Source of the DNA: Bacteroidota bacterium
Lineage (GTDB): Bacteria; Bacteroidota; Ignavibacteria; Kryptoniales; JAKASW01
DNA: 64,000 nt
Direction of reading: 5' to 3'
Assembly (NCBI GenBank): GCA_021812985.1
Contig: JAKAMG010000002.1
Coordinates: 97,879 to 161,878 of the forward strand
Shown: in pieces, positions 10,127 through 35,966 of the stretch
Layout of the letters: each line of letters begins with the position of its first letter
Numbering within the stretch: position 1 is the first letter of the stretch
Translations under genes and position numbers: made by a program
Notes under the pieces: generated by a model
Seen by the model: the letters and a program-made list of their open reading frames with translations, nothing else
Databases searched by the model: none
Told to the model about the DNA's origin: nothing

Positions 10127-10451
10127 TTAAAATCTCCAGATCTTTAACAGATTCGACGAAGTCGGGCGCCGTTTCGTTCACCCCTAGATTCATTGTTTGA
10201 ATGGGAAAATCGCTCTCTAAGTCACTTCGGGGGCTGTAGGCGTTTCCAAAATTGACCGTCTGACGACCCCTCCAAGTACTCGTCAGCATGTCCTTGACAC
10301 ATTGATTGGACTGTTTGATTATATTGCCCTTGTCAGAGGATTGCAGCCGGGACGTCGTGAGCCCGGCAGTTTTCAATCGGTTTTTCCCGCGAGACCTACC
10401 TCTCTTCGCTCCGCGGATGGATTGAGAAATGTTTGTGGATGGAGGATAGAT
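10127..10451. other. Divergent intergenic region, 325 nt
   Basis: Separates the minus-strand SDR from the plus-strand repeat protein and so must hold two promoters. An AT-richer core lies near 10290-10330. No credible small gene: an ORF running into it on the minus strand (to 10709) is antisense to the repeat gene and lacks protein-like composition. Confidence 0.6.
10294..10323 (+). promoter_or_regulatory. Candidate sigma70-like promoter of the T9SS repeat protein
   Basis: TTGACA at 10294-10299 followed, after 18 nt, by ATTATA at 10318-10323. It lies about 130 nt before the start codon at 10452. The -35 is perfect, the -10 is only fair, and promoter consensus in this lineage is uncertain, so this is a weak call. 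Confidence 0.35.
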
Positions 10452-13400
10452 ATGATAAAGAATTCGACTTTGATGATTGGCGTCGAGCTTTGTCTGGCAG
10501 TCGCTTTTGCTGCTTCGGTTTCCGCGCAGACGAACGGCGGGCGGGACGAGAGGGGTACGCCAATGGCGGTTCCCCAGAGAGTCTCCGCGCTGGCCCAGAT
10601 ACAGAATCTCGCCGGGCATCGGGCTGAGCAGACGCGAATCGACATGACAAGACAGAAGCTTCACAAGCTGCAGCGACAGACTGAAAGAGGAAAGAGAATC
10701 TTTCAACAACTGGGCGAAATAGCGAGGATTGACTCCGGCCGCGCGGGCGCAGTCAGGAAGAACGAGTTGTCCCAGTCGCTAACGTCGCAACAAATGAACC
10801 GGGTGCTGCTCCTCGGTCAGCCAACCGGATTCAGCCGCGCCCCTTACGTTGGTACCAGAGTACTCCCCGCAAAGGGGGGAAAGATGATGACCCCCTATCT
10901 TTCCTCAGCGGTCCTGATAAACGGGCAGCAGCGTGACACCGTGCATGTTGGAGAATCGTTCGATGTAACATTCTCGTTTTCATCGGGATACGTCTCAGCC
11001 GTCATGGATGTCTTCGTCGATGTTGACAACGACGGGATGGTAGATTCAACCGACATACCTCTTATGACAAGCGCCCTCTTGCTGGACAACGGAGCAAATG
11101 ACCTGGACAGCCGCGATGGCTTCTACAAATACAGCGTGAAGAAGGGCGATGTTCTCTCAAGAGTCGCAGGGAGCTTGCTATTCAGGGTCAATGACTATTC
11201 ATCAGCTTCAACCGCATCCGTGACCATTACACCTCGGGCTTCGGTCTCAATCTTCACTGCGAGAATAAGCCCGGCGATATCAGGCATCGTCGCGAAACTA
11301 AACACTCAGCTTGGTGATATATATGGCTGCACCGACTCCACTGGCTCATTCACGACCCCGATACCGCTCCCACCACCGTACTCGCTTCAGGTGACTCTGT
11401 ACGATCCGACAGGTAAAGTCTCCGGCTATCTCATGCCGCAAGCAAAGTATATCGACGTTTACACCGACACAACGGCAAAAACGGTTGAACTCACATCGGC
11501 AACCGCCTTCATAGAGGGGAACGTCAGGGATTACGACGGACATGCTGTCCCCTACGCGATAGTCAATGCGCACGGAGACTATGATTACTATGTTACTAAC
11601 GACATATTGATACCCCCTCCCTATTCTTTTTCCGCTGAGACCCGGGCCGATTCCCAGGGACATTACAAGATCGGTTTGATCGGCGGGAGGTGGAGCCTTT
11701 ATTCAAGAGTGGACTGGACAAACGAGTATCTCTCCGCATGTAACCAGAACATTATTGTTCCGTCGGACGGCACGATACTGGTCGACCTCGCGCTTCCAAA
11801 GTCGAATGCCTCAATCAGCGGCAGGGTAAGGCTCGATGGTTCGGGAATTGGCGGCGTGTCAGTCTGTGCCTACTCCGGATATCTGGCGAACTGCGCCCTC
11901 TCAGACCGCGATGGAAACTATTCGATTCCGGTCTTCAGGCTTGGCACCTATTCCGCCTCTGTTTCGATATCGGATGCCGGGTACTCAGCTGACACGGCTT
12001 ATAAGTACTCGCTGCCGCCGGACACTGCCGGAGTAGACTTCTCAATCAGCAAGGTTAAAGGAGGAGCCTCGGGCAAGATTATGAATGGCGTTGCCGGGAC
12101 CCCAGTTCGAAGGGCAGTCATTACATTCAGCGGTCCGACTTCCTTCACCACGATGAGCGACGACAGCGGAAACTACAGGGCACCTTTGAGAGATGGACAG
12201 TATTACGTTTACATCTTCGCGAACGGCTACTTCGGCCACACGGAGAATGCCCTGTCAATCTCGGGACAGGTCGTCACACGTAACTACACTCTCACCCCCG
12301 CCGCGGCCATAACCGGACGAGTGATTGATACAAGAGGCTTCCCCGTTGCTTACGCAAACGTTGCATTATATGCAAACGAATGGAGCGGGACAGCGTACTC
12401 CTACACGGACGAAGACGGATACTACTGCCTCAACGAGTTGACCCCTGGTGACTACAGATTGCGTGCGTATTCCTCGGGCTATATGATGAAATGGTACAAC
12501 GGCAAGACCGACTACTCTTCAGCGGACGTTATTCACGTCCTACAGGGGAGAGAAACCTCAGGCATCGATTTCACTCTTTCAAGAGGAGGAATGATATCGG
12601 GAAGGGTAGGTAACCGAAGCGGGCAGCCTCTGGGTGACGCGTACGTCGTCGTCTACGACTCTTTATACTATTGGTCATCGTATGCCTCGACCAACGACAG
12701 CGGAGAGTACAGAGTCTACGGATTATACACTGGCAGCTACTCCCTCTGCGCTTCCCACTTAGAATACTCGACGATGTGGTACGATGAAAAGCGTAGTTCC
12801 GAAACGGCAACGCCGGTTCACGTTGTGCTTGACAAGGAGACTCCGAATATCGACTTTGCGCTATGGAAGGGAGCGACGATTTCAGGAGTCGTAACAAATA
12901 AGAAACAGGGGGCTATTTCTAACGCCTACATTTCCGTCTTTGACACATCTCTCAATTTCGTATCCTCAGGCTACACCGGATATTCAGGCACCTACAGCAT
13001 AGCGAGGATATACCCCGGTTCATACTACGCCATGGCCTGGGCTTACGCCTACGGACAGAGGTGGTACGATAATGTCTCATGCGCGGATTCAGCCGCGGTC
13101 TTATCACTGGCAGAAAACGAGGTGCGGGAGGGAATTGATTTCGTCCTCCCGGCTGGCGGCATCATATCGGGTAGCGTTTCCGACGCGTCCGGCAACCCCA
13201 TCGCATGGGCGGGAGTAAACGCCTACAGCGTCGACGGCTCCGAATCAAGGTTCGCTAGTTCTGCAAATGACGGAAGTTACGCTCTCGCCGGCCTGTCGGC
13301 ACATCAGTATTTCGTTGAAGCGTATTCGGGAAACTTCTTGCCTCAATGGTACGACCATAAGTCCAGCCTGGCCAATGCTGATACGGTCAGGGTCATGGAG

Positions 13401-14891
13401 GATAGTACCACAACAGGCATCGACTTCAATCTGACAAATGGCTGGGGAATCTCAGGCTACGTCCTTGATGATTCCACTTCCCTCGGTCTTGCCGGCATGT
13501 GCGTCGAGGCGATTAACATCACCGATGGCTTTGTGCTGTCTGTCTGCACGGACGCGAACGGCTTTTACCAAATCCCAGCTTCGCCGGGTAGTTACATCCT
13601 CCGGGCCTACTCGAACCAGTCACCGGACTATGTCATGACTTACTATTCTTCCCAGGGGGAAGTGGGCGCACCATCGAAAGCGGAGGTGATAATAGTCTGC
13701 GATAGCGGCTATCCAATCCAAGCAACTATGAGAGTCCAAATCAGAAAGGATCACGCGATAGTCAACAGGTCAAGGATATCGCTCGTTCTGACAAACGACG
13801 GACGTCTCGGAAACGGCGACTCGCTCCTCCCGAGCGGAAGATGGCCGGACTCGACATCGCGGAATTACATTCCGGAGGGAAACTTCATTTTCGGGGCCTC
13901 ATCAGACTTAGGCACGGCGGTCTACGGGAGTTTAGGGGGCCTCCAAAATCCATTCAACTGGATCCCTCTGTGGAACTACAATGAGCATGCTGGCAAGTCC
14001 GGACAGATGACCGAGACATTTTTTTCAAGTGGGACGGATACGACCATTTGCCACGCGCGACTGGTGGTCTCGCAGAGGCTCTACTCCACCAACGCCGCTG
14101 ACTATGTCATCAACACGTACAAGCTGCACTATGACGGCAATATCTTCGGGGCCAATCTCAGTCTAAGGAATGTCTACCTGGGCGAGATTCTTCGATTCAG
14201 CATCTCCAACGGTAAGGACATGATACGAAGCATCGCGGCTGACAGCCTCGTGTTCGCATACGACTCCACGCACGCTGGCGGCATCAACATCGGTGTGAGA
14301 GCTCTCGGCGGTTCGTCGCCGAAGATCGGCTGGTGGAAAGTAAGCGAGGACCCCGAGAACATGACGTCGCTGTACCACGCACTTGAAAACGGCTCCGCGA
14401 TTTCTCAGTCTGCCACAGCTTCAGACTACCGGCTCTTTGTCAGCAGCGGACCTTATACGATTTACGAGGGTGATTCGATAGCGTTCGCTTTCGCCATCGT
14501 TGCCGGTCTCGGGAGCGACAGCCTCTCATCCGCATCGCGAGCCGCGGCCCGGGAGTACGGGATACTGATCTCCGACGTAAAGCCTCCGGATGACCCGACA
14601 TTGAGAATACCCTCGAGCTTCCAGCTCTTTCAGAATTATCCGAATCCCTTCAACCCGTCGACGAATATCAAGTTTGACCTGGCCAGGATGTCGCGGGTCA
14701 GGTTGGAGGTTTATAACGTCCTTGGACAGCGAATTGAAGAGTGGAATTTCGGGACGATGCAGGCCGGAAGGTACGAGAGGACTTTAAAAATGGATCGCCA
14801 CCCGAGTGGACTTTACTTTTACTCGATCACTGCCGTCGCGTCCGATGGAGAGCGTTTCACGTCGGTCAGGAAGATGGTGCTCGTGAAATGA
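10452..14891 (+). CDS. Large T9SS-secreted protein with tandem carboxypeptidase-regulatory-like repeats
   Basis: Secreted 1479-residue surface protein, function unknown. Signal peptide MIKNSTLMIGVELCLAVAFAASVSAQ, a basic, glutamine-rich segment (about 40-120), then at least seven Ig-like carboxypeptidase-regulatory (CarboxypepD_reg) units. Each begins ISGxV, has a GxY..xGL..G.Y strand pattern and most end with WYD-K...ADxVxV...GIDFxL. Unit starts lie at about 11814, 12066, 12309, 12594, 12879, 13164 and 13449; the last five are spaced exactly 285 nt. A beta-rich region (13740-14600) precedes the T9SS sorting domain (QNYPNPFNPSTNIKFDL, LEVYNVLGQRIEEW, PSGLYFYSI, VRKMVLVK). GGAGG lies 6 nt before ATG 10452, which excludes the upstream extension. 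A stalk or adhesin role is plausible but unproven. Confidence 0.88.
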   Translation: MIKNSTLMIGVELCLAVAFAASVSAQTNGGRDERGTPMAVPQRVSALAQIQNLAGHRAEQTRIDMTRQKLHKLQRQTERGKRIFQQLGEIARIDSGRAGAVRKNELSQSLTSQQMNRVLLLGQPTGFSRAPYVGTRVLPAKGGKMMTPYLSSAVLINGQQRDTVHVGESFDVTFSFSSGYVSAVMDVFVDVDNDGMVDSTDIPLMTSALLLDNGANDLDSRDGFYKYSVKKGDVLSRVAGSLLFRVNDYSSASTASVTITPRASVSIFTARISPAISGIVAKLNTQLGDIYGCTDSTGSFTTPIPLPPPYSLQVTLYDPTGKVSGYLMPQAKYIDVYTDTTAKTVELTSATAFIEGNVRDYDGHAVPYAIVNAHGDYDYYVTNDILIPPPYSFSAETRADSQGHYKIGLIGGRWSLYSRVDWTNEYLSACNQNIIVPSDGTILVDLALPKSNASISGRVRLDGSGIGGVSVCAYSGYLANCALSDRDGNYSIPVFRLGTYSASVSISDAGYSADTAYKYSLPPDTAGVDFSISKVKGGASGKIMNGVAGTPVRRAVITFSGPTSFTTMSDDSGNYRAPLRDGQYYVYIFANGYFGHTENALSISGQVVTRNYTLTPAAAITGRVIDTRGFPVAYANVALYANEWSGTAYSYTDEDGYYCLNELTPGDYRLRAYSSGYMMKWYNGKTDYSSADVIHVLQGRETSGIDFTLSRGGMISGRVGNRSGQPLGDAYVVVYDSLYYWSSYASTNDSGEYRVYGLYTGSYSLCASHLEYSTMWYDEKRSSETATPVHVVLDKETPNIDFALWKGATISGVVTNKKQGAISNAYISVFDTSLNFVSSGYTGYSGTYSIARIYPGSYYAMAWAYAYGQRWYDNVSCADSAAVLSLAENEVREGIDFVLPAGGIISGSVSDASGNPIAWAGVNAYSVDGSESRFASSANDGSYALAGLSAHQYFVEAYSGNFLPQWYDHKSSLANADTVRVMEDSTTTGIDFNLTNGWGISGYVLDDSTSLGLAGMCVEAINITDGFVLSVCTDANGFYQIPASPGSYILRAYSNQSPDYVMTYYSSQGEVGAPSKAEVIIVCDSGYPIQATMRVQIRKDHAIVNRSRISLVLTNDGRLGNGDSLLPSGRWPDSTSRNYIPEGNFIFGASSDLGTAVYGSLGGLQNPFNWIPLWNYNEHAGKSGQMTETFFSSGTDTTICHARLVVSQRLYSTNAADYVINTYKLHYDGNIFGANLSLRNVYLGEILRFSISNGKDMIRSIAADSLVFAYDSTHAGGINIGVRALGGSSPKIGWWKVSEDPENMTSLYHALENGSAISQSATASDYRLFVSSGPYTIYEGDSIAFAFAIVAGLGSDSLSSASRAAAREYGILISDVKPPDDPTLRIPSSFQLFQNYPNPFNPSTNIKFDLARMSRVRLEVYNVLGQRIEEWNFGTMQAGRYERTLKMDRHPSGLYFYSITAVASDGERFTSVRKMVLVK

Positions 14892-25545: not shown

Positions 25546-25659
25546 AGGGAGGCGAAAGCCGATGCATCGGTTCGTATCGGAGAGCGGATTGTTTCCGGAC
25601 GCTTGCTTCCGATTCAGACGCAGGCTAAATTCGTTCCACGTTCTTTAGTAAAACTGAAG

Positions 25660-25870
25660 TCTTGGTGTTCCGGCGCCATTAGCGTCGGGACTGAAAAGGG
25701 AATCCCGATCTCGGGACAATCGAGAGATAAACGGGAGCTGCCCCGCAACTGTATGCGGCAATCAAACACCGGAGCCACTGTGGCGCGTCAAGCGCGATGG
25801 GAAGGCGACGGCAAGTCACGCCGTGAGCCAGGAGACCTGCCAGGACTTTTTAGAATCAACGACTCGCGGA
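25660..25870 (+). ncRNA. Cobalamin (B12) riboswitch
   Basis: Leader RNA that senses adenosylcobalamin or a related cobalamin. Characteristic blocks appear in order: CTTGGTGTTCCGGCGCC near 25661, AAAAGGGAATCCC near 25695, the B12-box region GAGCTGCCCCGCAACTGTA at 25735-25753, GCCACTGTGGCG near 25774, GGGAAGGCGACGGCAAG near 25799 and AGCCAGGAGACCTGCC near 25827. It precedes an intrinsic terminator and a TonB receptor gene, the classical target. Boundaries are approximate. Confidence 0.93.
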
Positions 25871-25954
25871 GCTGTAATGCACACGGGTCCAACAACCTTC
25901 GAGGGAGAGGTTAAATTCAGTCCCGTCTCATGACGGGAATTGAGTTTTCTTTTC

Positions 25955-25982
25955 GCCCGCCCTCCCAGCGGGCTTTTTTTTT
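25955..25982 (+). terminator. Intrinsic terminator, expression platform of the B12 riboswitch
   Basis: Stem GCCCGC (25955-25960) / GCGGGC (25968-25973), loop CCTCCCA, then nine T (25974-25982), ending just before the receptor ribosome site. An earlier small hairpin CCCGTCTCATGACGGG (25922-25937) could be the alternative structure. This arrangement implies transcription termination when cobalamin is bound. Confidence 0.85.
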
Positions 25983-25995
25983 GTGAGGAGATCAC

Positions 25996-27894
25996 ATGCT
26001 TCTTCTGTTATTGTTCAATCTTGTCTTTTCGCCACAAGACACCCTCCGCTCCTATCGGGCACAGGACGTTGTCGTAACCGCGACACGCTCTCCCATCAGG
26101 AGCATCGACGCGCCTTCAACCGTGAGCCGCATCGACATCAGTCAACTTCGCGATTCAGGCATCGAAGACGCCAACGCGGTCCTTTCGTCCGTGAACGGAA
26201 TATTCATTAAAGAGAACGGACCGGGCCAGCTCAACACGATCAGCCTCCGGGGAACTTCCGCGGAACAGACTCTATTCATGATGGACGGGGTCAGCCTCAA
26301 CAACGTCCAGAACGGGCTCGTGGACCTATTTCTTATCCCAACTAACGATATCGCCTCGGTCGAAATCTCACAGGGAGGAGCATCGGCTCTTTACGGCGCT
26401 AACGCCGTGGGAGGCGTAGTCAACTTGGAAACGCGTTCCCCGAACGATAACTCCCTCCGCCTCGATCTTGGAGGGGGATCCTTCGGCAGGCAGAATTTCG
26501 GAGGAGAGCTCAGCGGAGTAGTAGGACCTGTGCGGGTCGACCTGACGGCCAACCGCAGCCGCGCCGTGAACAATTACGATTTCACATACGACAACGGAGG
26601 GGTAAGCACGGCAATGCAGCGAAGCGGCGCCGATTATCTCGCGGACAACCAGTCGCTCAAGCTTGTTCTTCCTTCAACCGGCGGGACGACCTCACTCTTC
26701 GTTCAGAACCTGTATGCCGATCGTGGCACTCCCGGAATGGTAACAGACCCCGCGTTCGTCGGAACGGCCCGAGAGACAGACAGGAACACGATCGCAATTC
26801 TAAGGAACACTGGGATTCTCGGCGGCCTCAACTATTCGGCGTCTGCCGGGGCAATCTACTCTTACCTCCATTACACTGACCCTGCCTACGCGAGCAATGA
26901 CTACTACAAGATGCTGTCATTCCAGCCCTCTGTTCAGGCAACTTATGCGGACGGAAATTTCACATCAACTGGAGGAGTCGATGCGGAAATTGACAGAGGC
27001 GAGAGCAACGAGATGACCGGAATTAAGAACCGGGATCGTTGGGGAGCTTTTCTGACCGGGATGTATGAGTTCCTGAAAGGCTACAACCTCGAGACTCGTC
27101 TCTTCGGCGCGGTGAGATATGATGGCTACTCTGACTTCGGAGGGTCGTTCAATCCGAAGGCAGGCATCAACATCAAGCCACTTGCCTTCGCTCCCGTCCA
27201 TCTCCGGGCGAGCGCGGGGACTTCATACAGGGTCCCCACCTTCAATGACCTCTATTACGCCGGGCTTGGAAACACATCGCTCAAACCGGAGATGTCGACC
27301 GAGTACGATGCCGGACTCGTCGGTGAAATCAATCGCGGAAATTCACCTATCGCCCTGACTTTCGATGTCAGCTATTACCACATCGACGTGAGAAACGGTA
27401 TAGTCTGGCGCCCGGTAAGCGCCGTCGAATGGCTCCCGGAGAACTATGGTAGAATACTCTCGAAGGGGGTTGAGGTCGGCGCCGATCTGTACTACGGCTC
27501 GCTTTTGCGGCTGAAGGGTAATTACTCCTCGGGAGAATCAGTAGACCTTTCCGATCCATCCGATCCGACTACTTACGAGAAGCAGCAGCTCTACATTCCG
27601 AAGCATCAGAGCTACCTCATGATCCAGGTGACTCCCGGAATATTCAACGTCACTGCCGACGTTCGTTACGTTGGGACGCGTTATTACTCGACGGATAACA
27701 GCTCTTCAATATCTCCGTTTGCGGTGGCTTCGCTCTCCGCCTCTGCGCGAGTTGATGCTGGCGTGTTCGTGATCTACCCCAAGGCGATGGTGGACAACCT
27801 ATTCAACCGCAACTACCAGGTGCTTCCATTGTACCCTGTTCCGATGAGAAACTACAGATTCGAGCTGACTTTTGAATTCAAGCAGGGAAAATGA
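25996..27894 (+). CDS. btuB: BtuB-like TonB-dependent receptor for cobalamin/corrinoid
   Basis: Outer-membrane importer of 632 residues, inferred to take up cobalamin because a B12 riboswitch precedes it. Short signal peptide MLLLLLFNLVFSPQ, a TonB box region QDVVVTATRSP, plug domain (APSTVSRIDISQLRDSG, LNTISLRGTSAEQTLFMMDGVSLNN, IASVEISQGGASALYGANAVGGVVNLET), then a 22-strand-type barrel ending with an aromatic-rich strand (PMRNYRFELTFEFKQGK). This is the size and domain order of BtuB, without the carboxypeptidase-like extension seen in the receptor at the left edge. GAGGAG lies 7 nt before ATG 25996. Confidence 0.9.
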   Translation: MLLLLLFNLVFSPQDTLRSYRAQDVVVTATRSPIRSIDAPSTVSRIDISQLRDSGIEDANAVLSSVNGIFIKENGPGQLNTISLRGTSAEQTLFMMDGVSLNNVQNGLVDLFLIPTNDIASVEISQGGASALYGANAVGGVVNLETRSPNDNSLRLDLGGGSFGRQNFGGELSGVVGPVRVDLTANRSRAVNNYDFTYDNGGVSTAMQRSGADYLADNQSLKLVLPSTGGTTSLFVQNLYADRGTPGMVTDPAFVGTARETDRNTIAILRNTGILGGLNYSASAGAIYSYLHYTDPAYASNDYYKMLSFQPSVQATYADGNFTSTGGVDAEIDRGESNEMTGIKNRDRWGAFLTGMYEFLKGYNLETRLFGAVRYDGYSDFGGSFNPKAGINIKPLAFAPVHLRASAGTSYRVPTFNDLYYAGLGNTSLKPEMSTEYDAGLVGEINRGNSPIALTFDVSYYHIDVRNGIVWRPVSAVEWLPENYGRILSKGVEVGADLYYGSLLRLKGNYSSGESVDLSDPSDPTTYEKQQLYIPKHQSYLMIQVTPGIFNVTADVRYVGTRYYSTDNSSSISPFAVASLSASARVDAGVFVIYPKAMVDNLFNRNYQVLPLYPVPMRNYRFELTFEFKQGK

Positions 27895-28090
27895 ACTCAA
27901 GAGGCATGTGTGACTTTTCGGCCGAGCCTGAATCCTTGATTGCGCGCTGCCCCGTTGTTAAGTTAGACATCAAATGAGTTTTGTCGCTGAAAGTTGTATG
28001 CGAGAGGAAAGACAGCGAATCTTGGCCTCTCGGCTGTTACACCGCACGGGTTTAAATATTGACAAACCGGTTAATTAACTGGAGGTTATA

Positions 28091-28606
28091 ATGAACATCC
28101 TATTCACAATAGTCCTGATACTTTTCGCGGCGTTTTCCAGGCTTATACCTCACGCCCCGAACTTCACGCCTGTAATTTCGATAGCGCTCTTCGCCGGCGC
28201 GTACCTAAAGAAGAGATATGCCTTCCTCGTACCGACCGCGGCGTTGTTCCTGAGCGACATCGTCATCGGTTTTTACGACGCCGGTTCGATGGCCTTCGTT
28301 TACGGCACGCTTCTCTTGATCGTGGCCATGGGCCTGCTCCTCGAGAACAAGGTGTCCGCGGGAAAGATCGCCGGGCTTTCCGTCGCGGGCGCGGTGATAT
28401 TCTTCATCACTACGAACTTCGCAGTCTGGCTTGTGCCAGGTTCGATATATTCCAGGACTATTGCCGGCCTCGTGCAATGCTACGTTCTCGCGATTCCCTT
28501 TTTCGGCAACACGATCCTCAGCACGCTGATATACAGCGCCGCCATGTTCGGCATATACGAGGCGGCCGAGAAATACCTCTTCAAGCCAAAACCAGTACGG
28601 GAATAA
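28091..28606 (+). CDS. DUF6580-type integral membrane protein, possible small-molecule transporter
   Basis: Inner-membrane protein of 171 residues with about five to six hydrophobic segments and a conserved N-terminal motif FSRLIPHAPNFTPVISIALFAGAYL, typical of the DUF6580 putative transport family, which resembles ECF-type S components in size and topology. One cysteine lies in a membrane segment (LVQCYVLAIPFF, Cys130). Strong GGAGG site 5 nt before ATG 28091. It lies 197 nt after btuB in the same direction, so it could serve corrinoid passage through the inner membrane; that role is inferred only from position. A strong terminator follows it. Confidence 0.75.
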   Translation: MNILFTIVLILFAAFSRLIPHAPNFTPVISIALFAGAYLKKRYAFLVPTAALFLSDIVIGFYDAGSMAFVYGTLLLIVAMGLLLENKVSAGKIAGLSVAGAVIFFITTNFAVWLVPGSIYSRTIAGLVQCYVLAIPFFGNTILSTLIYSAAMFGIYEAAEKYLFKPKPVRE

Positions 28607-28617
28607 ACAGAAAATCT

Positions 28618-28649
28618 GGGTGCCGGATATCCGGCACCCTTTCTTTTTC
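28618..28649 (+). terminator. Rho-independent terminator
   Basis: Perfect 22-nt palindrome GGGTGCCGGATATCCGGCACCC (28618-28639, 11-bp half-sites) followed by TTTCTTTTTC, 12 nt after the DUF6580 stop. Confidence 0.85.
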
Positions 28650-28697
28650 GCCGGAGGCCGAAGGGGTGTTCGGTCAATCAAACGGAGGGTGATCCAG

Positions 28698-29018
28698 ATG
28701 GATGCACAGGCAAGGTACAGCCTCACCATGGAGTTTCAGCGGATTGAACAGAAGCCGATGATGAAGTGGGGCCCGGTCAGGGTTTTCTTCGTTGCCGGTA
28801 TTCAATTCCTCGTTTCGGCTTCCGTAGCCGTCGACGCGATTCGGATCGTGAAAATGAGCAACTGGTTCGTAGTCCCGCTGGTACTTGTCGCCCTGGTTCT
28901 CGCGGCGACTGCCACCTACAACGTAGTGATGTACGGAATCGACAGGAAATTCCGCGCGGTCATCGGAGCAATGCTCGCCGACGGCCGAGGCAGCGAGGCC
29001 GTCTCCAAAGGCCTGTAA
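28698..29018 (+). CDS. Small two-helix membrane protein, unknown function
   Basis: 106 residues. A hydrophilic N-terminus of about 28 residues precedes two hydrophobic helices (VRVFFVAGIQFLVSASVAV and WFVVPLVLVALVLAATATY) joined by a short basic loop, then a charged tail. I recognise no family. GGAGGG (28684-28689) about 9 nt before ATG 28698 makes the internal start convincing over the open extension to 28620, which would run into the preceding terminator. Reads as a real gene by ribosome site and composition; topology predicts inner membrane. Confidence 0.7.
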   Translation: MDAQARYSLTMEFQRIEQKPMMKWGPVRVFFVAGIQFLVSASVAVDAIRIVKMSNWFVVPLVLVALVLAATATYNVVMYGIDRKFRAVIGAMLADGRGSEAVSKGL

Positions 29019-29098: not shown

Positions 29099-32000
29099 TT
29101 ATTTCATCAGAAGCATTTTCTGCTTGAACACCCTGTCCCCGGCACGCATGACGTAGAAGTACACACCAGAGGCAAATCTGTTCGCGTTGAAAGTTACCCG
29201 CTGGTAGCCAGCCCTCATGACACCGTCGATGAGCACCGCCACTTCCTGTCCCAGGATGTCGTAGACAGCGATTCTAACATGCGACTCCCTCGGGAGCGCG
29301 AACCCTATCGTTGTCGCTGGATTGAACGGGTTCGGATAGTTCTGGAGGAGCGCGAACTCCCTCGGGAGTGCTCCCTCATCGTTGACCCCGTCCAGTCCAA
29401 CCCCGGTGGTGAACGTGGCACTTTGAGAGTAGTCGCTGACCACGCCGTCTGTGTCTACAACAGCGACGCGCCAGTAGTGTGCCGTCTTCGCATCTAGCGG
29501 ATTGCCCAGCCTGACGGTAGTGTCAGGAGCGTTCACAATCGTATCAAGCACAAGCGTCGAGAACGCGTTGTCCTTGGCCACCTGCACACGATAAGTCAGG
29601 GCACCCAGGCAAACCCGCCACCGGAGAGTCGCTCTCCGCGGCTCTCCGGTCGTGCCCTGAGGCGAAGAGAGACCCGGGGCAAGGAGTGCCGGAGCGAAAT
29701 CGGTCTGATATCTCGGGAGTATCTCGTACGGGCCGATCGTCGCGCTTCCTGGGCTCGTGAACTGGACCGCGATAGCGGTCACCTTGATCGGGTAACCTGG
29801 CTCACCTGCCGCCGCCGCGTCGACTCCGGAATTGATGTACATTATCAAAGTGTCGGTCTGGCTCCCGCCGTACATTACGAGCGAAGTGTTCGCGCCCCAT
29901 GCCTGCGTGTCGTATCTCTTCATCAGTCCGTTCAACCTGATTAGCCTCGACTCATACAGTTCAGGGTTAGCATTGAACTGTGACACCGTCAAATCAATCG
30001 GACGCACTTTCTTTCCAGAAGCGACTTTCTGAACGTCCGTAGACACCGTGTCAGGAGTTATTTCAGAGTTGCCGCGATATTGATCCAGCTTGCCAATGAC
30101 GATAACAGAATCGCCGAAGGAGAATGCCTGCGCCGCTGCTCCGTACTTATACAAGTTCAGAGCTCCCACTGAGTCCTGAACATACTGACTGAGATTGGAC
30201 GCCTGGTAGTTCGGACCGTTTATGACTCCCGCCACTCTGAAGTAATAACCCTTGTATAGATTCAGGAGATTAGCGTCGGTCTTCTTAATTCCATCCAACG
30301 ACATCGGGCTGATTCCGGCAAAGTACGCGTTAGCGGCGACTTTCGCAGTGAGAGAGTCTCCGCCGTTCGTCGAGATGGCGCGTATCCGATATTCGATCCG
30401 GTAACCGTTCTGATTGACGTTCCCCGGTATCTTAGCCGTGAAGAGCGTATCCGTCAAAGCCATGTTCACCGAATCCGCGACATCGTTGACATAGTACAGA
30501 AGGCGCACGGCCGAGAGTCCGAAAAGATCCGTAACTTTCGCTGAGACGATCACCGAGTCTCCTGCGTTGGGGACGCGCGTCGACCGTGTGATACCCGAAA
30601 TCGAAGGTGGGGGCGCGTTAATGCCAGCCCCTGTTACCTTAACTGTGTCAGGTGACGAAGAGGCGTTGTGAGTGAAGACTATGTTGCCCGACTGAGAACC
30701 GACGGCCGTCGGCGCGAACGTCACACGGAACCAGACACTGTCTCCCGTGTTGAGCGTTGCGGATGTGGGATCAACCGTGAAGAGAGAATTGTCGGACGCG
30801 ACCGCGCTTATGTTCAACCCGGTCGTGCCGCTGTTCTTTACGTAGACGGAGTCCTTCTTATTCTGAGTAAGTATCACGTTTCCGAAGTTCATGCTGGCCG
30901 AAGAGAGTGTGAAGCCGGCCTGTATTCCTGTCCCGCTGACGCCTATGTTTTGGGAAGTCACTCCTGTGCTCGCGACCGAGATATTGTCCGAAGCAGCGCC
31001 GTAAGTGACGGGGTTAAAACGGACATATATCGTGGTCGTGTTGACCGCGCCGCCTGCCTGCGTGAGCGTGAGTGATGATCCGAAGCCGGAGCCAGACGTG
31101 GTTGATATTTCAAAATGGCTCGGCGCAGTTATGGTGATGTCGGCCGTGAGATTTCCGCCGCGCACAGTAAAGGTCTGCTCGGCCGAGGGGGTCCCCACAG
31201 CAACATTTCCAAATGCGAGCGGACCGCCGGTCGTCGCGATAAACGCTGCACCATTGCTCGGCGCGAAGTCGACCCCCCTGAACACCGTGTTTGCAGGAGA
31301 CGCAGCGAGCGTGTCAGCAGTGCTCCCGGAGCCGGTGTCCGTGACTCTTATCAAAGCGTTTGGGGTCGACGACGTTGTCGCGTATATCACCGGGTTTGTC
31401 CCGCTCCAGTCGACCGTCAATCCCCTCGAGGGTATAGCGGTCGTTCCGTTGTTCAGGAGCGTGTACGCTTTGCTCCAAGTACCGGCGCTGAGAGTCCACT
31501 TCTGTATACCGCCACCGTTCGCAGCTGAGCCGTCGTCAGCAACGTAAAGCGTATTTCCGTCAGGACTAACCGAGAAGCCGTAAGGACTGTGCGTTCCGCT
31601 GGTCGGCATGCCTGGCAGAAGTGTAGTGGTCTGACCCGAAGTGGTAGGAGTTCCGCTCCCTATCGAGCATACTCCGAGAAACGCGCCGGAAGCGGTGCTG
31701 ATGTACAGCTGATTGTTGTATACCCTTACGACGCGTGTGTTCGTGGGAGTAGATGACATCTGGATCGAGGTTCCGATGTTTCCGAATTGCTCATACCTTA
31801 TGCCGCCTCCTGACGTGGCCATCCATGTGTTGGAGGTTCCATCCATCACGGCCGACCTGACGGCCGACGTGCCGCCGTCTGTGATACCCGTGGTCAGGTC
31901 TATGTTGCCTGACGCGTCAATCCTTGCTATCAGCCTCTTCGTGGCGGCTATGGCGAACGAGCTGACTCCGGCCACGGTGTCGTACCCCGCTATCGTGAGG

Positions 32001-32272
32001 TACTTTCCATCCGCAGAGCGTGCGAGATGGCCCTCGCTCCCGGAATTGCCGGTTACCGTGAACCTCGGCGATGAACCGCTTGAAGGAAGAGCTATCGTCT
32101 GAACAAGCGATCCTGTCTTAGTGTATTCTTTCAGAGAGACCGGCGCGGAAGAACTGCTGAGAGTAGCAACTCCGTCCCCCATTTGTAGAACGACGATATT
32201 GCCGTTCGTGAATTGTCCCCATGCGCTCATTGAAAAAAGCGCCACGAATAGAACCGTACTGACAACGCGCAT
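29099..32272 (-). CDS. T9SS-secreted protein with propeller-like, choice-of-anchor-D and OB-like domains
   Basis: Secreted 1057-residue protein, function unknown. Signal peptide MRVVSTVLFVALFSMSAWGQ; a repeat-rich beta region (about 20-335) with propeller-like segments (FSVSPDGNTLYVADDG, RGLTVDWSGTNPVIYATTS); two Ig-like ASH/choice-of-anchor-D units (about 350-560: FGNVAVGTPSAEQTFTVRG, NFGNVILTQNKKDSVYVKNSG, PTAVGSQSGNIVFTHN); a beta domain (about 565-650); an OB-fold-like segment (about 660-850: YYFRVAGVINGPNY, YVQDSVGALNLY, RLIRLNGLMKRY); a fibronectin-III-like unit (about 870-960); and a T9SS sorting domain (QNYPNPFNPATTIGFAL, IAVYDILGQEVAVLI, ASGVYFYVM, KQKMLLMK). AGGAGG lies 6 nt before ATG 32272. 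The OB-like segment recurs in the next T9SS gene, suggesting a shared ligand theme. Confidence 0.85.
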   Translation of the reverse strand: MRVVSTVLFVALFSMSAWGQFTNGNIVVLQMGDGVATLSSSSAPVSLKEYTKTGSLVQTIALPSSGSSPRFTVTGNSGSEGHLARSADGKYLTIAGYDTVAGVSSFAIAATKRLIARIDASGNIDLTTGITDGGTSAVRSAVMDGTSNTWMATSGGGIRYEQFGNIGTSIQMSSTPTNTRVVRVYNNQLYISTASGAFLGVCSIGSGTPTTSGQTTTLLPGMPTSGTHSPYGFSVSPDGNTLYVADDGSAANGGGIQKWTLSAGTWSKAYTLLNNGTTAIPSRGLTVDWSGTNPVIYATTSSTPNALIRVTDTGSGSTADTLAASPANTVFRGVDFAPSNGAAFIATTGGPLAFGNVAVGTPSAEQTFTVRGGNLTADITITAPSHFEISTTSGSGFGSSLTLTQAGGAVNTTTIYVRFNPVTYGAASDNISVASTGVTSQNIGVSGTGIQAGFTLSSASMNFGNVILTQNKKDSVYVKNSGTTGLNISAVASDNSLFTVDPTSATLNTGDSVWFRVTFAPTAVGSQSGNIVFTHNASSSPDTVKVTGAGINAPPPSISGITRSTRVPNAGDSVIVSAKVTDLFGLSAVRLLYYVNDVADSVNMALTDTLFTAKIPGNVNQNGYRIEYRIRAISTNGGDSLTAKVAANAYFAGISPMSLDGIKKTDANLLNLYKGYYFRVAGVINGPNYQASNLSQYVQDSVGALNLYKYGAAAQAFSFGDSVIVIGKLDQYRGNSEITPDTVSTDVQKVASGKKVRPIDLTVSQFNANPELYESRLIRLNGLMKRYDTQAWGANTSLVMYGGSQTDTLIMYINSGVDAAAAGEPGYPIKVTAIAVQFTSPGSATIGPYEILPRYQTDFAPALLAPGLSSPQGTTGEPRRATLRWRVCLGALTYRVQVAKDNAFSTLVLDTIVNAPDTTVRLGNPLDAKTAHYWRVAVVDTDGVVSDYSQSATFTTGVGLDGVNDEGALPREFALLQNYPNPFNPATTIGFALPRESHVRIAVYDILGQEVAVLIDGVMRAGYQRVTFNANRFASGVYFYVMRAGDRVFKQKMLLMK

Positions 32273-32510: not shown

Positions 32511-35500
32511 TCATTTCACAAGCATCATTTTTCCCACCATCACATTTCCCCCGGCCCTGAGGATGTAGAAATAGGTTCCCGACGAAAACTTTCCCGCCTC
32601 GAACGTGAAGTTGTAGTAGCCGGCCGACTCTCTTTCGTCAACGAGCGTCGCAACTTCCCTTCCAAGCACGTCATAAACTTTCAGCGTCACATGGCTGATG
32701 ACAGGGAGCCGGTAGCTGATGACGGTAGTCGGATTGAACGGGTTGGGATAGTTCTGTCCAAGCGCGTAGGAAGATGGGACATCCGTGCCCGATCTCCTCA
32801 CGCCCAGGCCTATATTGTCGCTCCCGCCCGCTTCAATGTACCTTGCCTTGAACTCCTGAAGGTAGAGGTTCGAGATATGCGGATCATGGATCACGAGCGT
32901 GTTCTCGTTGTTCGACGTCTCCGCCGAGTTAGACCAGTTATGCGAGCCCGTGATAACCGACTCGTTGCCCTGAGCGGCATCGGCATCGATAAGAGCGTAT
33001 TTGTGATGGAGAAGACCCGTGAGGGTGCTTCCCTTCAAAAGCACATCGACGCCCGATCCCTGAAGGAATGAGAATTGGTTTCCCGAATCAGTGTTGTTAT
33101 CCAGCAGGACCCTTACCTTCCTCCCCGACGCCTTCTCCGTCGAGAGAAGCTGAGCGAGATCAGACCTCGTGAACGTCAGCATGCAAACGTTTATCGAGTG
33201 AGTGGCTGCGGAAAGGGTCCGGTAGATATTGGCGGTGGTCTGATCGGACGGACTGAAATAGAGTTCGATCGGAATACCTGCTACGTTGAATTTATGCGGA
33301 GTGTTATCCGTCTTTCTCAATCCGAATCTTGACTGGGTGGCATTCGGAGTATCGCTCTGGCTTCCCCACATCTCGTTGAACTCGATGGTGTACGCGCTGG
33401 CGATGGCTTTGTCCTGGATCTCAAGGGCGTTCTGCGCGTCATTGTTGTTGCCTGGGTCAGTGGCATTCCATGATCCTGACCAGACCCAGTCGTCCGTGAA
33501 GGAACTCGTGTCGCGGTAATCGAATACGGCGAACTTGTTATGCATGAGGCCGTTGCCGGCGTTCAGCGGATCAAATCTGTCTGTTATGAAGGGGATGCCG
33601 CTCGATTTCACCGCGTTCATCGGAGCCGTATTTGAGTTATCATACTCAGCTATCATGCGCACCTTCACCCCTCTGCCCTTCGCCGCGATGAGGGCGTTCG
33701 CGATGTTTGTCCCGACCGTGCCACTCATGCTGTATAAAGCAACGTCGATCGAGTAACGCGCAGCGTTAATCCTAGATATGAACTCGCTGGAGATGTCGAC
33801 CGTTTGCGCCTTGCCGCCGCGAGCCACCGATGTGTCCACCGACTTGGAAAAGAACACGTCGATCGCCCCCGTCGATCCCGTGGGGGAAGCCGTGCTGAAT
33901 AGCGCGTCCCCGGTCGTGTTCGATCCCGAGGAATCCTTCGCGACTACCTGGTAGTGGTAGACGGTCGCTGGCCATAATCCGCCGAGGACCATGTCATGGA
34001 GGGAGTCGGCCGAAGCGTCAACGAGCGAATCGGTGTAACTATCTGTTTTTCCGTATCTTACGGTTGCCGTCGACGCGTCGCCGGTCCTGAAGGTGATGGT
34101 TACCGAGTTCGGTTGAATGTCTGACTCCTCAGGCTTCTGGACGAACGAAGGGCCGGGCGAAACAATTATATCGTCCTGCGCCCGCGGCACGACCTCGTAG
34201 TCTGCCGTGTAGGGAGGTGTAAGCGTTGAAGTTGTTCCCGGTTTGTACTGCTTCAGAATTCCTATAAGATCAAATGTCCCCGCAGGGATGTTCCAGCTCC
34301 CCGAGATGTAGCCGCCGGTGGTTCCGGTCACGTCCGTCAATGTCTGATTGGCCGAATTATAAGTCACGCCGTTCATCCGAACGAGCCTTCCCTCGTTGGG
34401 CTCGGAGTAGTCATCGTTGAATGTCTGGTTCACATCAGCAGCGGTGAGCAGAAGAGGGGCGGGGAGTTTGCATCCGTGCGCTAGGATGAACGTCCTTGCC
34501 GAATCCGGGAGAACTTCCGTTGTACCACGATGCTGAAAGATTGATCCCGTCAGGGTAATACTGTCTCCAACCTGATAATCGTACGCCCGCGAGAAGCTGA
34601 ACACATTTATGCCCGCCGTCGCATCCTGAACATAAAGATCAGTTCCGGTCGGATTCCCGTCTGATGTGATCACCCCGCTGATGGTTACCGTCGCCCCGAT
34701 CTGATATGGGCTGGCCGGGACTCCCTGGGAGTCGTTGATGTGCAGGTCGATGATTCTCACAATCTTGGTGACTGACACAGCAAGCTGCGAAGCGACCTGA
34801 GAAGGGAGGGCGCCAGCGGCCGCGGTCTCCAGGACAAAATACACCGATACTCCGGAGTCCGGGAGAGTGACCGACCGAAATACGACACGCGCGGTATCGG
34901 TCTTGCCGACAGACAGACCTCCGATACGGACGGTGTCCCGGGTCGCCTGCAGACTCGCTCCCGCTGTGCCCGATCCTGAAACGGATACGTCCGACGGACT
35001 CCCGGACCAGTTGACAAGCGAAGGGATGACAATGACCGCGGTATCTATGATTTCGGTCTCATTGCTCACGAAGCTGATTGCTAAGTCATGCGTCGAGGCG
35101 GCGTCCACCGTTGACGGTACGATGGAGGCTGTTCCGATCCCGCTCCCGGGAGATGATGTGGATGGCTCGACGGGACTCTTCGAGTTCTGCGGCTGAGGCG
35201 TCGTCCGCTGTACAAAATCATCGAGATTGTTGTCGCTGTCGTAACCATTACCCTCGAACTCGTCCGCCCCGCCGGCGTTCATAGATGCAGCGTCAGATGT
35301 GCTCTTCGCCTTTCTCTCAAGCGACACTCCCTGAACCGGCCTGACCGCGGGCGCACCTTCGAAATTTGGCGATGAGGTCGTTCCCCAGCCTATGAGATCT
35401 ATGACCGTTCCGGAAGAATTTCTTATGAATACGGCGCCGCCTGTATTGCCCAGACCAAGCGTGGAACTCGGCGCGGGATTATTATCACGCGTGACTACTC

Positions 35501-35807
35501 CGCCACCACCGAATAAATAATAGCCGTGAGCCTGCATGACAGTGCCCGACGGCATGACGTACTTGTTCGTATACGTTGTGGATGTTGCGGACTTGTAATC
35601 AATCGTCCACCCGCTGATGTCCACTGATGACGTGGTCGGATTGTAGATTTCAACAAACTCGTCATTGTTAGAGGCCTGCGATTCATATACTCCATCTATC
35701 AGTATCTCGCTTATGACCACGTGGTCTGAAGTCTGCCCGAACGTGTAAGTCCATGGGAACGCGGTTAAGAGAGTGAAAGACGCAAATAGAACAGCCCTGA
35801 ATTGCAT
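32511..35807 (-). CDS. T9SS-secreted phospholipase-D-like protein with lamin-tail domain
   Basis: Secreted 1098-residue protein, probably a nuclease or phosphodiesterase. Signal peptide MQFRAVLFASFTLLTAFPWTYTFGQ; lamin-tail domain (about 28-195: VVISEILIDG, NDEFVEIYNPTTSSVDISGWTI); OB-like segment (about 350-540: VTISGVITSDGNPTG, YVQDATAGINVFSF, GRLVRMNGVTYN); fibronectin-III-like unit (about 560-650); then two PLD modules with complete HxKx4D motifs, MHNKFAVFD and LHHKYALID, each followed by GSWN/GSHNW; and a T9SS sorting domain (QNYPNPFNPTTVISYRL, LKVYDVLGREVATLV, SSGTYFYIL, KMMLVK). ATG 35807 has GGAGAA about 5 nt upstream; the extension to 35921 is discarded. Two HKD motifs in one chain are what a PLD superfamily active site needs. 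Confidence 0.88.
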   Translation of the reverse strand: MQFRAVLFASFTLLTAFPWTYTFGQTSDHVVISEILIDGVYESQASNNDEFVEIYNPTTSSVDISGWTIDYKSATSTTYTNKYVMPSGTVMQAHGYYLFGGGGVVTRDNNPAPSSTLGLGNTGGAVFIRNSSGTVIDLIGWGTTSSPNFEGAPAVRPVQGVSLERKAKSTSDAASMNAGGADEFEGNGYDSDNNLDDFVQRTTPQPQNSKSPVEPSTSSPGSGIGTASIVPSTVDAASTHDLAISFVSNETEIIDTAVIVIPSLVNWSGSPSDVSVSGSGTAGASLQATRDTVRIGGLSVGKTDTARVVFRSVTLPDSGVSVYFVLETAAAGALPSQVASQLAVSVTKIVRIIDLHINDSQGVPASPYQIGATVTISGVITSDGNPTGTDLYVQDATAGINVFSFSRAYDYQVGDSITLTGSIFQHRGTTEVLPDSARTFILAHGCKLPAPLLLTAADVNQTFNDDYSEPNEGRLVRMNGVTYNSANQTLTDVTGTTGGYISGSWNIPAGTFDLIGILKQYKPGTTSTLTPPYTADYEVVPRAQDDIIVSPGPSFVQKPEESDIQPNSVTITFRTGDASTATVRYGKTDSYTDSLVDASADSLHDMVLGGLWPATVYHYQVVAKDSSGSNTTGDALFSTASPTGSTGAIDVFFSKSVDTSVARGGKAQTVDISSEFISRINAARYSIDVALYSMSGTVGTNIANALIAAKGRGVKVRMIAEYDNSNTAPMNAVKSSGIPFITDRFDPLNAGNGLMHNKFAVFDYRDTSSFTDDWVWSGSWNATDPGNNNDAQNALEIQDKAIASAYTIEFNEMWGSQSDTPNATQSRFGLRKTDNTPHKFNVAGIPIELYFSPSDQTTANIYRTLSAATHSINVCMLTFTRSDLAQLLSTEKASGRKVRVLLDNNTDSGNQFSFLQGSGVDVLLKGSTLTGLLHHKYALIDADAAQGNESVITGSHNWSNSAETSNNENTLVIHDPHISNLYLQEFKARYIEAGGSDNIGLGVRRSGTDVPSSYALGQNYPNPFNPTTVISYRLPVISHVTLKVYDVLGREVATLVDERESAGYYNFTFEAGKFSSGTYFYILRAGGNVMVGKMMLVK

Positions 35808-35966
35808 GTAGGTTCTCCGGTCCTGCGGCCAGAACAAATCCGCTTCTGAATTAGAATAAATGGTATATGGGCTCAGCCTGCCATGCCGGGCCACAAATTC
35901 ATTAACACGACTCAGGACCAATATAAGGCAAATATTCTTCGAACAAAATGACGCGGGGTGCTCTGG

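Follow-up and report, generated by a model that had tools for sequence, protein, structure and literature searches.

DUF6580 membrane proteins as candidate solitary S-component-type importers of vitamin B12 in bacteria without BtuCD

In a 64,000-nucleotide stretch of contig JAKAMG010000002.1 (hereafter, the window) from the assembly GCA_021812985.1 of a Bacteroidota bacterium (Ignavibacteria, Kryptoniales), a cobalamin riboswitch is followed by the gene for a TonB-dependent receptor and by a gene for a small membrane protein of the family DUF6580 (PF20221). DUF6580 is probably an inner-membrane importer of corrinoids (vitamin B12) that replaces BtuCD in bacteria lacking this transporter, and that acts as a solitary carrier of the type of the S-components of energy-coupling factor (ECF) transporters. 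Four lines of evidence, drawn from sequence comparison and structure prediction, point to this role: association with B12 riboswitches, replacement of FecCD permeases (the family of BtuC), absence of the ECF component EcfT from most of the tested hosts, and a predicted S-component fold. A preliminary description of the window, made from the sequence alone, had suggested that the protein may move corrinoid across the inner membrane, and the riboswitch association, the FecCD-free host genome, the near-exclusive pattern in 392 genomes and the predicted fold all lend support to this suggestion.

Linkage of DUF6580 to cobalamin riboswitches

The layout of the locus was correctly given in the preliminary description: a complete cobalamin riboswitch with its terminator, the receptor and DUF6580, all in one direction (Table 1). 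The riboswitch is the sole Rfam match at gathering score within the window, and the terminator region 3' of it (25905-25990) folds with a z of -5.2. The consensus scan for terminators, which yields 8 such sites in the whole stretch compared with 3.1 in shuffled sequences, finds none on the + strand in the 196 bases between the receptor and DUF6580, so that a single transcript, and hence co-transcription of the two genes, appears likely. The top NCBIfam match of the receptor is the B12 receptor TIGR01779, at 155.3 bits, well under the equivalog cut-off of 599.7; because this match and the riboswitch are the basis of its name, the receptor is called only 'BtuB-like'.

Table 1. Features of the riboswitch-receptor-DUF6580 locus (positions in the window)
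Feature	Positions	Strand	Details
Cobalamin riboswitch aptamer	25646-25858	+	RF00174, 95.9 bits (gathering score 31.5), model positions 1-189 of 189
Terminator-like hairpin and T run, 3' of riboswitch	25955-25982	+	hairpin 25955-25973, then nine T
TonB-dependent receptor, BtuB-like	25996-27894	+	632 aa; Pfam Plug and barrel
DUF6580 protein, candidate solitary S-component-type corrinoid importer	28091-28606	+	171 aa; PF20221, 176.3 bits (cut-off 27)
Strong terminator-like hairpin closing the unit behind DUF6580	28618-28639	+	consensus terminator scan

Across the phylum, PF20221 is found in 161 of 392 genomes (160 above the cut-off) and in 93 of 179 genera; it is absent from all 14 control genomes. 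Linkage was assessed in 100 DUF6580 loci from 95 genomes of the phylum, with flanks of no more than 5 kb either way, a sample that comprises about one genome per genus plus second copies and leaves out the weakest PF20221 matches and most same-genus duplicates. The covariance model R1, for which 16 riboswitches served as input, some of them taken from the sampled loci themselves, gives 46 matches in 41 of these loci; 40 have the riboswitch 5' of DUF6580 in the same orientation, and one (L117) has it on the opposite strand. By chance alone, a count of about 0.09 per 100 loci would be anticipated, given the 105 RF00174 matches (obtained with stricter filters, and two of them under the gathering score) in the 305 Mb of 80 DUF6580 genomes. 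Rfam's own model, which is independent of R1, recovers the linked riboswitch in all 37 linked genomes of this set of 80; no other riboswitch was found genome-wide in 24 of the 37, and in five genomes (G093, G120, G200, G243 and G298), both of the riboswitches found flank DUF6580.

Eight DUF6580 genes of the phylum are located immediately 3' of the riboswitch, and therefore, DUF6580 itself, not the receptor alone, appears to be under B12 control in these loci. In the other 32 linked loci, a TonB receptor intervenes in 30 and a DUF5074 propeller, which we take to resemble BtuG of Bacteroides, in 11. The order riboswitch, propeller, receptor, DUF6580 and MetH is shared by five loci (L038-L040, L042 and L084; titled Ignavibacteria where named), and genes for MetH, BtuF-like and BtuG-like proteins are recurrent in the vicinity of DUF6580.

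The association extends to other phyla. Among 16 named loci, a riboswitch is present in 12, in 11 of these, including that of the acidobacterium L046, on the same strand and upstream; none is detected in L033, L044, L047 and L048, where the contigs of L033 and L047 stop no more than 2.9 and 0.35 kb, respectively, upstream of the match. In L045 and L048, on contigs labelled Pelagibacteraceae, possibly through misbinning, a TonB receptor adjoins DUF6580, and in L045 a cobalamin riboswitch lies on the opposite strand, ahead of the receptor. Acidobacteria, the phylum of L046, carry PF20221 in 39 of 297 genomes, and 6 of 38 further acidobacterial loci have a riboswitch, each time 5' of DUF6580 and in its orientation. 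Thus, the riboswitch link recurs independently in Acidobacteria, and the linkage that the preliminary description had read from a single locus is found across genomes. In a tree of 151 DUF6580 sequences, 56 of them linked (short search, with 58 of the 147 inner branches weak), linkage takes 20 changes compared with 45 when the labels are shuffled, and is therefore clustered, though present in several distant branches; the well-supported branches alone force just 2 changes.

Occurrence in place of FecCD permeases and scarcity of the ECF motor

The genome that contains the window (3.5 Mb, 98.95% complete) has a single match each to RF00174 and PF20221, and no match to the FecCD (BtuC-type) permease; the same search was positive in 13 of the 14 control genomes. 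The absence of BtuCDF, initially noted for the window, holds genome-wide as far as FecCD is concerned. The genome encodes B12 enzymes: it has eight B12-binding domain matches, six of these above the cut-off, and the matches include a B12 domain of methylmalonyl-CoA mutase, scoring above its cut-off, and the C-terminal half of a MetH.

Among the 392 genomes of the phylum, strong FecCD matches (best E <= 1e-50, a line drawn after inspection of the gap that separates strong from partial matches) are present in 26 of the 161 genomes with DUF6580, compared with 228 of the 231 genomes without it (Fisher p 1e-73, a statistic that ignores relatedness). For any FecCD match, the respective counts are 55 of 161 and 229 of 231, and at the genus level, strong FecCD is found in 19 of 93 genera with DUF6580 compared with 85 of 86 without. 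Both DUF6580 and a strong FecCD are missing from just 3 of the 392 genomes. Six families (2, 3, 23, 26, 33 and 43) contain both kinds of genera, family 3 solely via a weak match in G062, which suggests that DUF6580 and FecCD have been swapped repeatedly. Strong FecCD is present in 5 of the 40 riboswitch-linked genomes, compared with 26 of all 161, so the DUF6580 genomes without a linked riboswitch obey the same rule of FecCD replacement. Of the 16 named genomes, two, one of them that of L046, carry strong FecCD.

The ECF motor is similarly scarce. No match to EcfT/CbiQ (PF02361) was found in 72 of 80 DUF6580 genomes, among these G039, which belongs to the same genus as the window genome, and 25 of the 37 riboswitch-linked genomes have neither EcfT nor strong FecCD. 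By these searches, most of the tested hosts have neither BtuCD nor an ECF motor, and the window genome is an exception in its genus. It holds one EcfT gene, within a cassette that includes its own S-component and two ATPases; because of this gene, we infer that DUF6580 works without ECF from the other genomes. The cassette (L158:5716-9627, contig G000:C29) has the gene order S, T, A, A and lies behind an IF-2B-like gene; its S-component matches PF12822 weakly.

An alternative is that DUF6580 is a true corrinoid S-component that, like CbrT, needs an EcfT/EcfA motor encoded elsewhere in the genome. This possibility would be in accord with the predicted fold of both models described below, with the EcfT gene of the window genome and those of the 8 of 80 genomes in which EcfT was matched, all riboswitch-linked, and with the only match of the sequence profile A2 among the PDB sequences, a weak one to chain A of the ECF-CbrT entry 6fnp (E 0.013). 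However, the 72 genomes without EcfT disfavor it, the ECF cassette of the window genome already has an S-component, and the marginal link to CbrT disappears with the wider profile A3. Dependence on ECF thus appears unlikely, the window genome being the case where it could still apply.

Predicted fold, conserved residues and a possible mechanism

AlphaFold2 models were obtained for the window protein from 17 sequences (predicted local distance difference test, pLDDT, 84.7; predicted template modelling score, pTM, 0.79) and for an acidobacterial homologue from 13 sequences (pLDDT 90.0, pTM 0.83). In the VIA-align comparison, where rows no more than 1 apart count as tied, S-components or ECF S chains fill the top 19 rows for the window model (Z from 13.3 down to 8.2), followed by a row at 6.3; they likewise fill the top 20 rows for the acidobacterial model (Z from 15.1 down to 10.3), with the cobalt protein CbiM (Z 10.3) included, followed by a row at 7.7. 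Entry 4huq, among the top rows, is presumably the S chain of an ECF transporter. BtuM aligns with the window model at Z 12.6 (root mean square deviation 3.1, 157 aligned residues) and, in the cobalamin-bound form, ranks first for the acidobacterial model at Z 15.1 (root mean square deviation 2.5, 158 aligned residues). FolT is level with BtuM in both lists, and the biotin S-component reaches Z 11.8 and 13.8 for the window and acidobacterial models, respectively. The models therefore bear out the resemblance to S-components that had been proposed from size and topology, but likeness of fold alone does not establish the substrate.

The S-component fold is shared with receptor proteins, according to a passage of PMC11109136, which would fit a B12 sensor or accessory protein that carries nothing. 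Such a function appears highly improbable: in the Pfam search, the window protein has no domain besides PF20221 (no kinase and no FecCD permease domain), and DUF6580 occurs where the permease is missing, a loss for which a sensor would not compensate.

Among 112 representatives at less than 80% identity, five residues are conserved, namely R17 (112), N24 (110), D56 (111), Y71 (111) and W113 (109), compared with H21 (89) and C130 (85, with Ser in 19 and other residues in 8). The single cysteine of the window protein mentioned in the preliminary description is Cys130, but the parallel with BtuM drawn from it there is not supported: in the window model, this residue falls after helix 5 and ahead of the last helix, and it is replaced in 27 of the 112 representatives, 9 of these riboswitch-linked. 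Being in a different loop and not invariant, Cys130 was rejected as a BtuM-type cobalt ligand of general occurrence. Four of the 48 riboswitch-linked representatives (L076, L115, L132 and L147) have neither His21 nor Cys130, and a branch of ten sequences (families f23, f26, f33 and f46; 99% support), all riboswitch-linked, lacks His21 and has Asp, once Ser, at position 109. Therefore, neither the His nor the Cys seems to be required.

These residues also bear on whether the protein might carry another B12-controlled substrate, such as cobalt or a part of a corrinoid precursor, rather than the whole corrinoid. Cobalt transporters, too, presumably occur under B12 riboswitches, CbiM is in the fold list of the acidobacterial model, and one His is widely kept. 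Yet the His is missing from a riboswitch-linked branch, the neighbors are receptor, BtuG-like, BtuF-like and MetH genes, and DUF6580 stands in for the very family of BtuC, all of which makes a different substrate improbable.

Several observations weigh against the identification of DUF6580 as a corrinoid importer. R1 found no riboswitch within the flanks of at most 5 kb in 59 of the 100 loci of the phylum, none was found near DUF6580 in 32 of the 38 acidobacterial loci, and several of the riboswitch-less loci have neighbors without a link to B12 (YceI, SDR, HlyD-like and succinyl-CoA-ligase-like genes), so a corrinoid role of the unlinked genes is less certain. Strong FecCD accompanies DUF6580 in 26 genomes, the FecCD family covers siderophore permeases as well as BtuC, the Fisher test takes no account of relatedness, and the window genome encodes EcfT. 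Foldseek alone gives an E no better than 0.2 for both models (probability up to 0.99). Finally, sequence comparison does not firmly join DUF6580 to S-components: neither A2 nor A3 returns BtuM from the PDB sequences, all 56 members of A3 match PF20221 (E up to 0.1), just one reaches a Pfam S-component family (PF07155, E 0.025), and the NCBIfam scan of the 56 yields isolated weak matches (E 0.029 or worse).

If DUF6580 is nevertheless a corrinoid importer, the locus might work as follows. At low B12, the riboswitch would stay open, and the receptor and DUF6580, parts recognized from the sequence, would be made together. The TonB receptor, in other loci along with the BtuG-like propeller, would take the corrinoid to the periplasm, by analogy with the known BtuB and BtuG. 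DUF6580, with its predicted S-component fold, would then bind the corrinoid in the pocket that holds the vitamin in S-components, R17, N24, D56, Y71 and W113 being among the residues that may aid binding. In most hosts, no ATP-driven ECF motor would take part as the corrinoid crosses the membrane, probably through toppling and facilitated diffusion, as proposed for BtuM, followed by trapping in the cytoplasm.

A broader version, which we regard as possible but doubtful, is that DUF6580 serves a large share of the phylum and some Acidobacteria as their general B12 importer and, in a part of these bacteria, is fed without ATP by a BtuF-like periplasmic binding protein encoded next to it, with no permease and ATPase involved. 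A BtuF-like gene (Peripla_BP_2) stands beside DUF6580 in eight loci of the phylum, immediately behind it in seven and ahead of it in L097, and six of the eight genomes (G007, G069, G080, G211, G253 and G387) have no strong FecCD. An S-component-fold carrier fed by a binding protein and working without ATP would, if real, represent a transport assembly of a new type. All told, BtuF-like genes adjoin DUF6580 in L046, L097, L098, L110, L112, L123, L128, L132, L148, L190, L196 and L203.

Neighboring genes and comparison with known transporters

A gene for a Dph6-like ATP pyrophosphatase (PF01902) recurs near DUF6580 in L068, L097, L110, L112, L115, L117, L126, L129, L132, L148, L190, L196, L202 and L203, and a SIR2-family gene is found alongside or in place of it in L112, L115, L117 and L147; a corrinoid-related role of these neighbors is possible. 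Riboswitch-less DUF6580 copies of family f33 (L102, L103, L105, L107, L109, L114, L116 and L122) share a conserved neighborhood of BrkB-like, MPG glycosylase, YceI, HlyD-like and SDR genes, without an evident link to B12, and three genomes (G069, G077 and G211) each have one copy of this kind and one of the riboswitch-linked kind. In L200 (4098-5492, - strand), 100 bases 3' of a cobalamin riboswitch, an open frame of 464 aa starts as DUF6580 and continues past the length of this family toward receptor-like frames, through either fusion or sequence error. In the window, a 132-aa open reading frame without a Pfam match (28620-29018, +) comes after the DUF6580 terminator, and three large proteins bear Por_Secre_tail sorting domains (10302-14891, 29099-32272 and 32511-35921), the last one along with PLD-like and lamin-tail domains. 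A search of the plasmid collection gave no match.

The NCBI annotation label of the family is, we believe, 'DUF6580 family putative transport protein', in which case transport has already been suspected. A text search of the literature by the name DUF6580 returned no paper on the family, and the papers containing the string PF20221 are apparently unrelated, judging from their titles and the beginnings of their abstracts. In the B12-transport literature (including PMC5997447, PMC8620254, PMC11109136 and PMC9723704), the titles, abstract beginnings and retrieved passages hold nothing on DUF6580. If the proposed role is correct, a single unnamed family fills the gap of the B12 importer in a large bacterial group, calls of 'no B12 transporter' in genome-based auxotrophy surveys would be corrected, and BtuM would be joined by a second family in which to study the mechanism of S-component-type B12 carriers that use no ATP.

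The closest known system is BtuM, for which B12 import has been proposed and which, according to PMC6072759, is mostly proteobacterial and occurs with btuB, without BtuCDF or an ECF module; E. coli is said in the same source to have no ECF module. The same paper puts forward toppling and facilitated diffusion with trapping as the mechanistic hypothesis for BtuM. Both BtuM and DUF6580 are small membrane proteins with the S-component fold, predicted in the case of DUF6580, and DUF6580 likewise tends to be tied to a btuB-like receptor or to B12 regulation and to occur where BtuCDF and an ECF module are lacking. However, BtuM of Thiobacillus denitrificans depends on the essential, invariant Cys80 in loop 3, a cobalt ligand (PMC6072759), whereas the Cys of DUF6580 is variable and located elsewhere, and DUF6580 is found in the phylum of the window, Acidobacteria and others. 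Because it does not share this defining cysteine, DUF6580, which would work like BtuM, is not classed as BtuM.

CbrT of the ECF-CbrT transporter of Lactobacillus delbrueckii, a cobalamin S-component and the weak match of profile A2, differs in that, according to passages of PMC5997447, it supports no growth on its own without the ECF module, whereas DUF6580 mostly occurs without EcfT. Solitary BioY is also an S-component that reportedly transports without an ECF module (passages of PMC6072759 and PMC11109136), but its vitamin is biotin, and such solitary cases are called rare in PMC6072759. BtuCDF has the same proposed job, moving B12 across the inner membrane, but is of unrelated build, with a FecCD permease, an ATPase and a binding protein, and DUF6580 is mostly found where a strong FecCD is absent.

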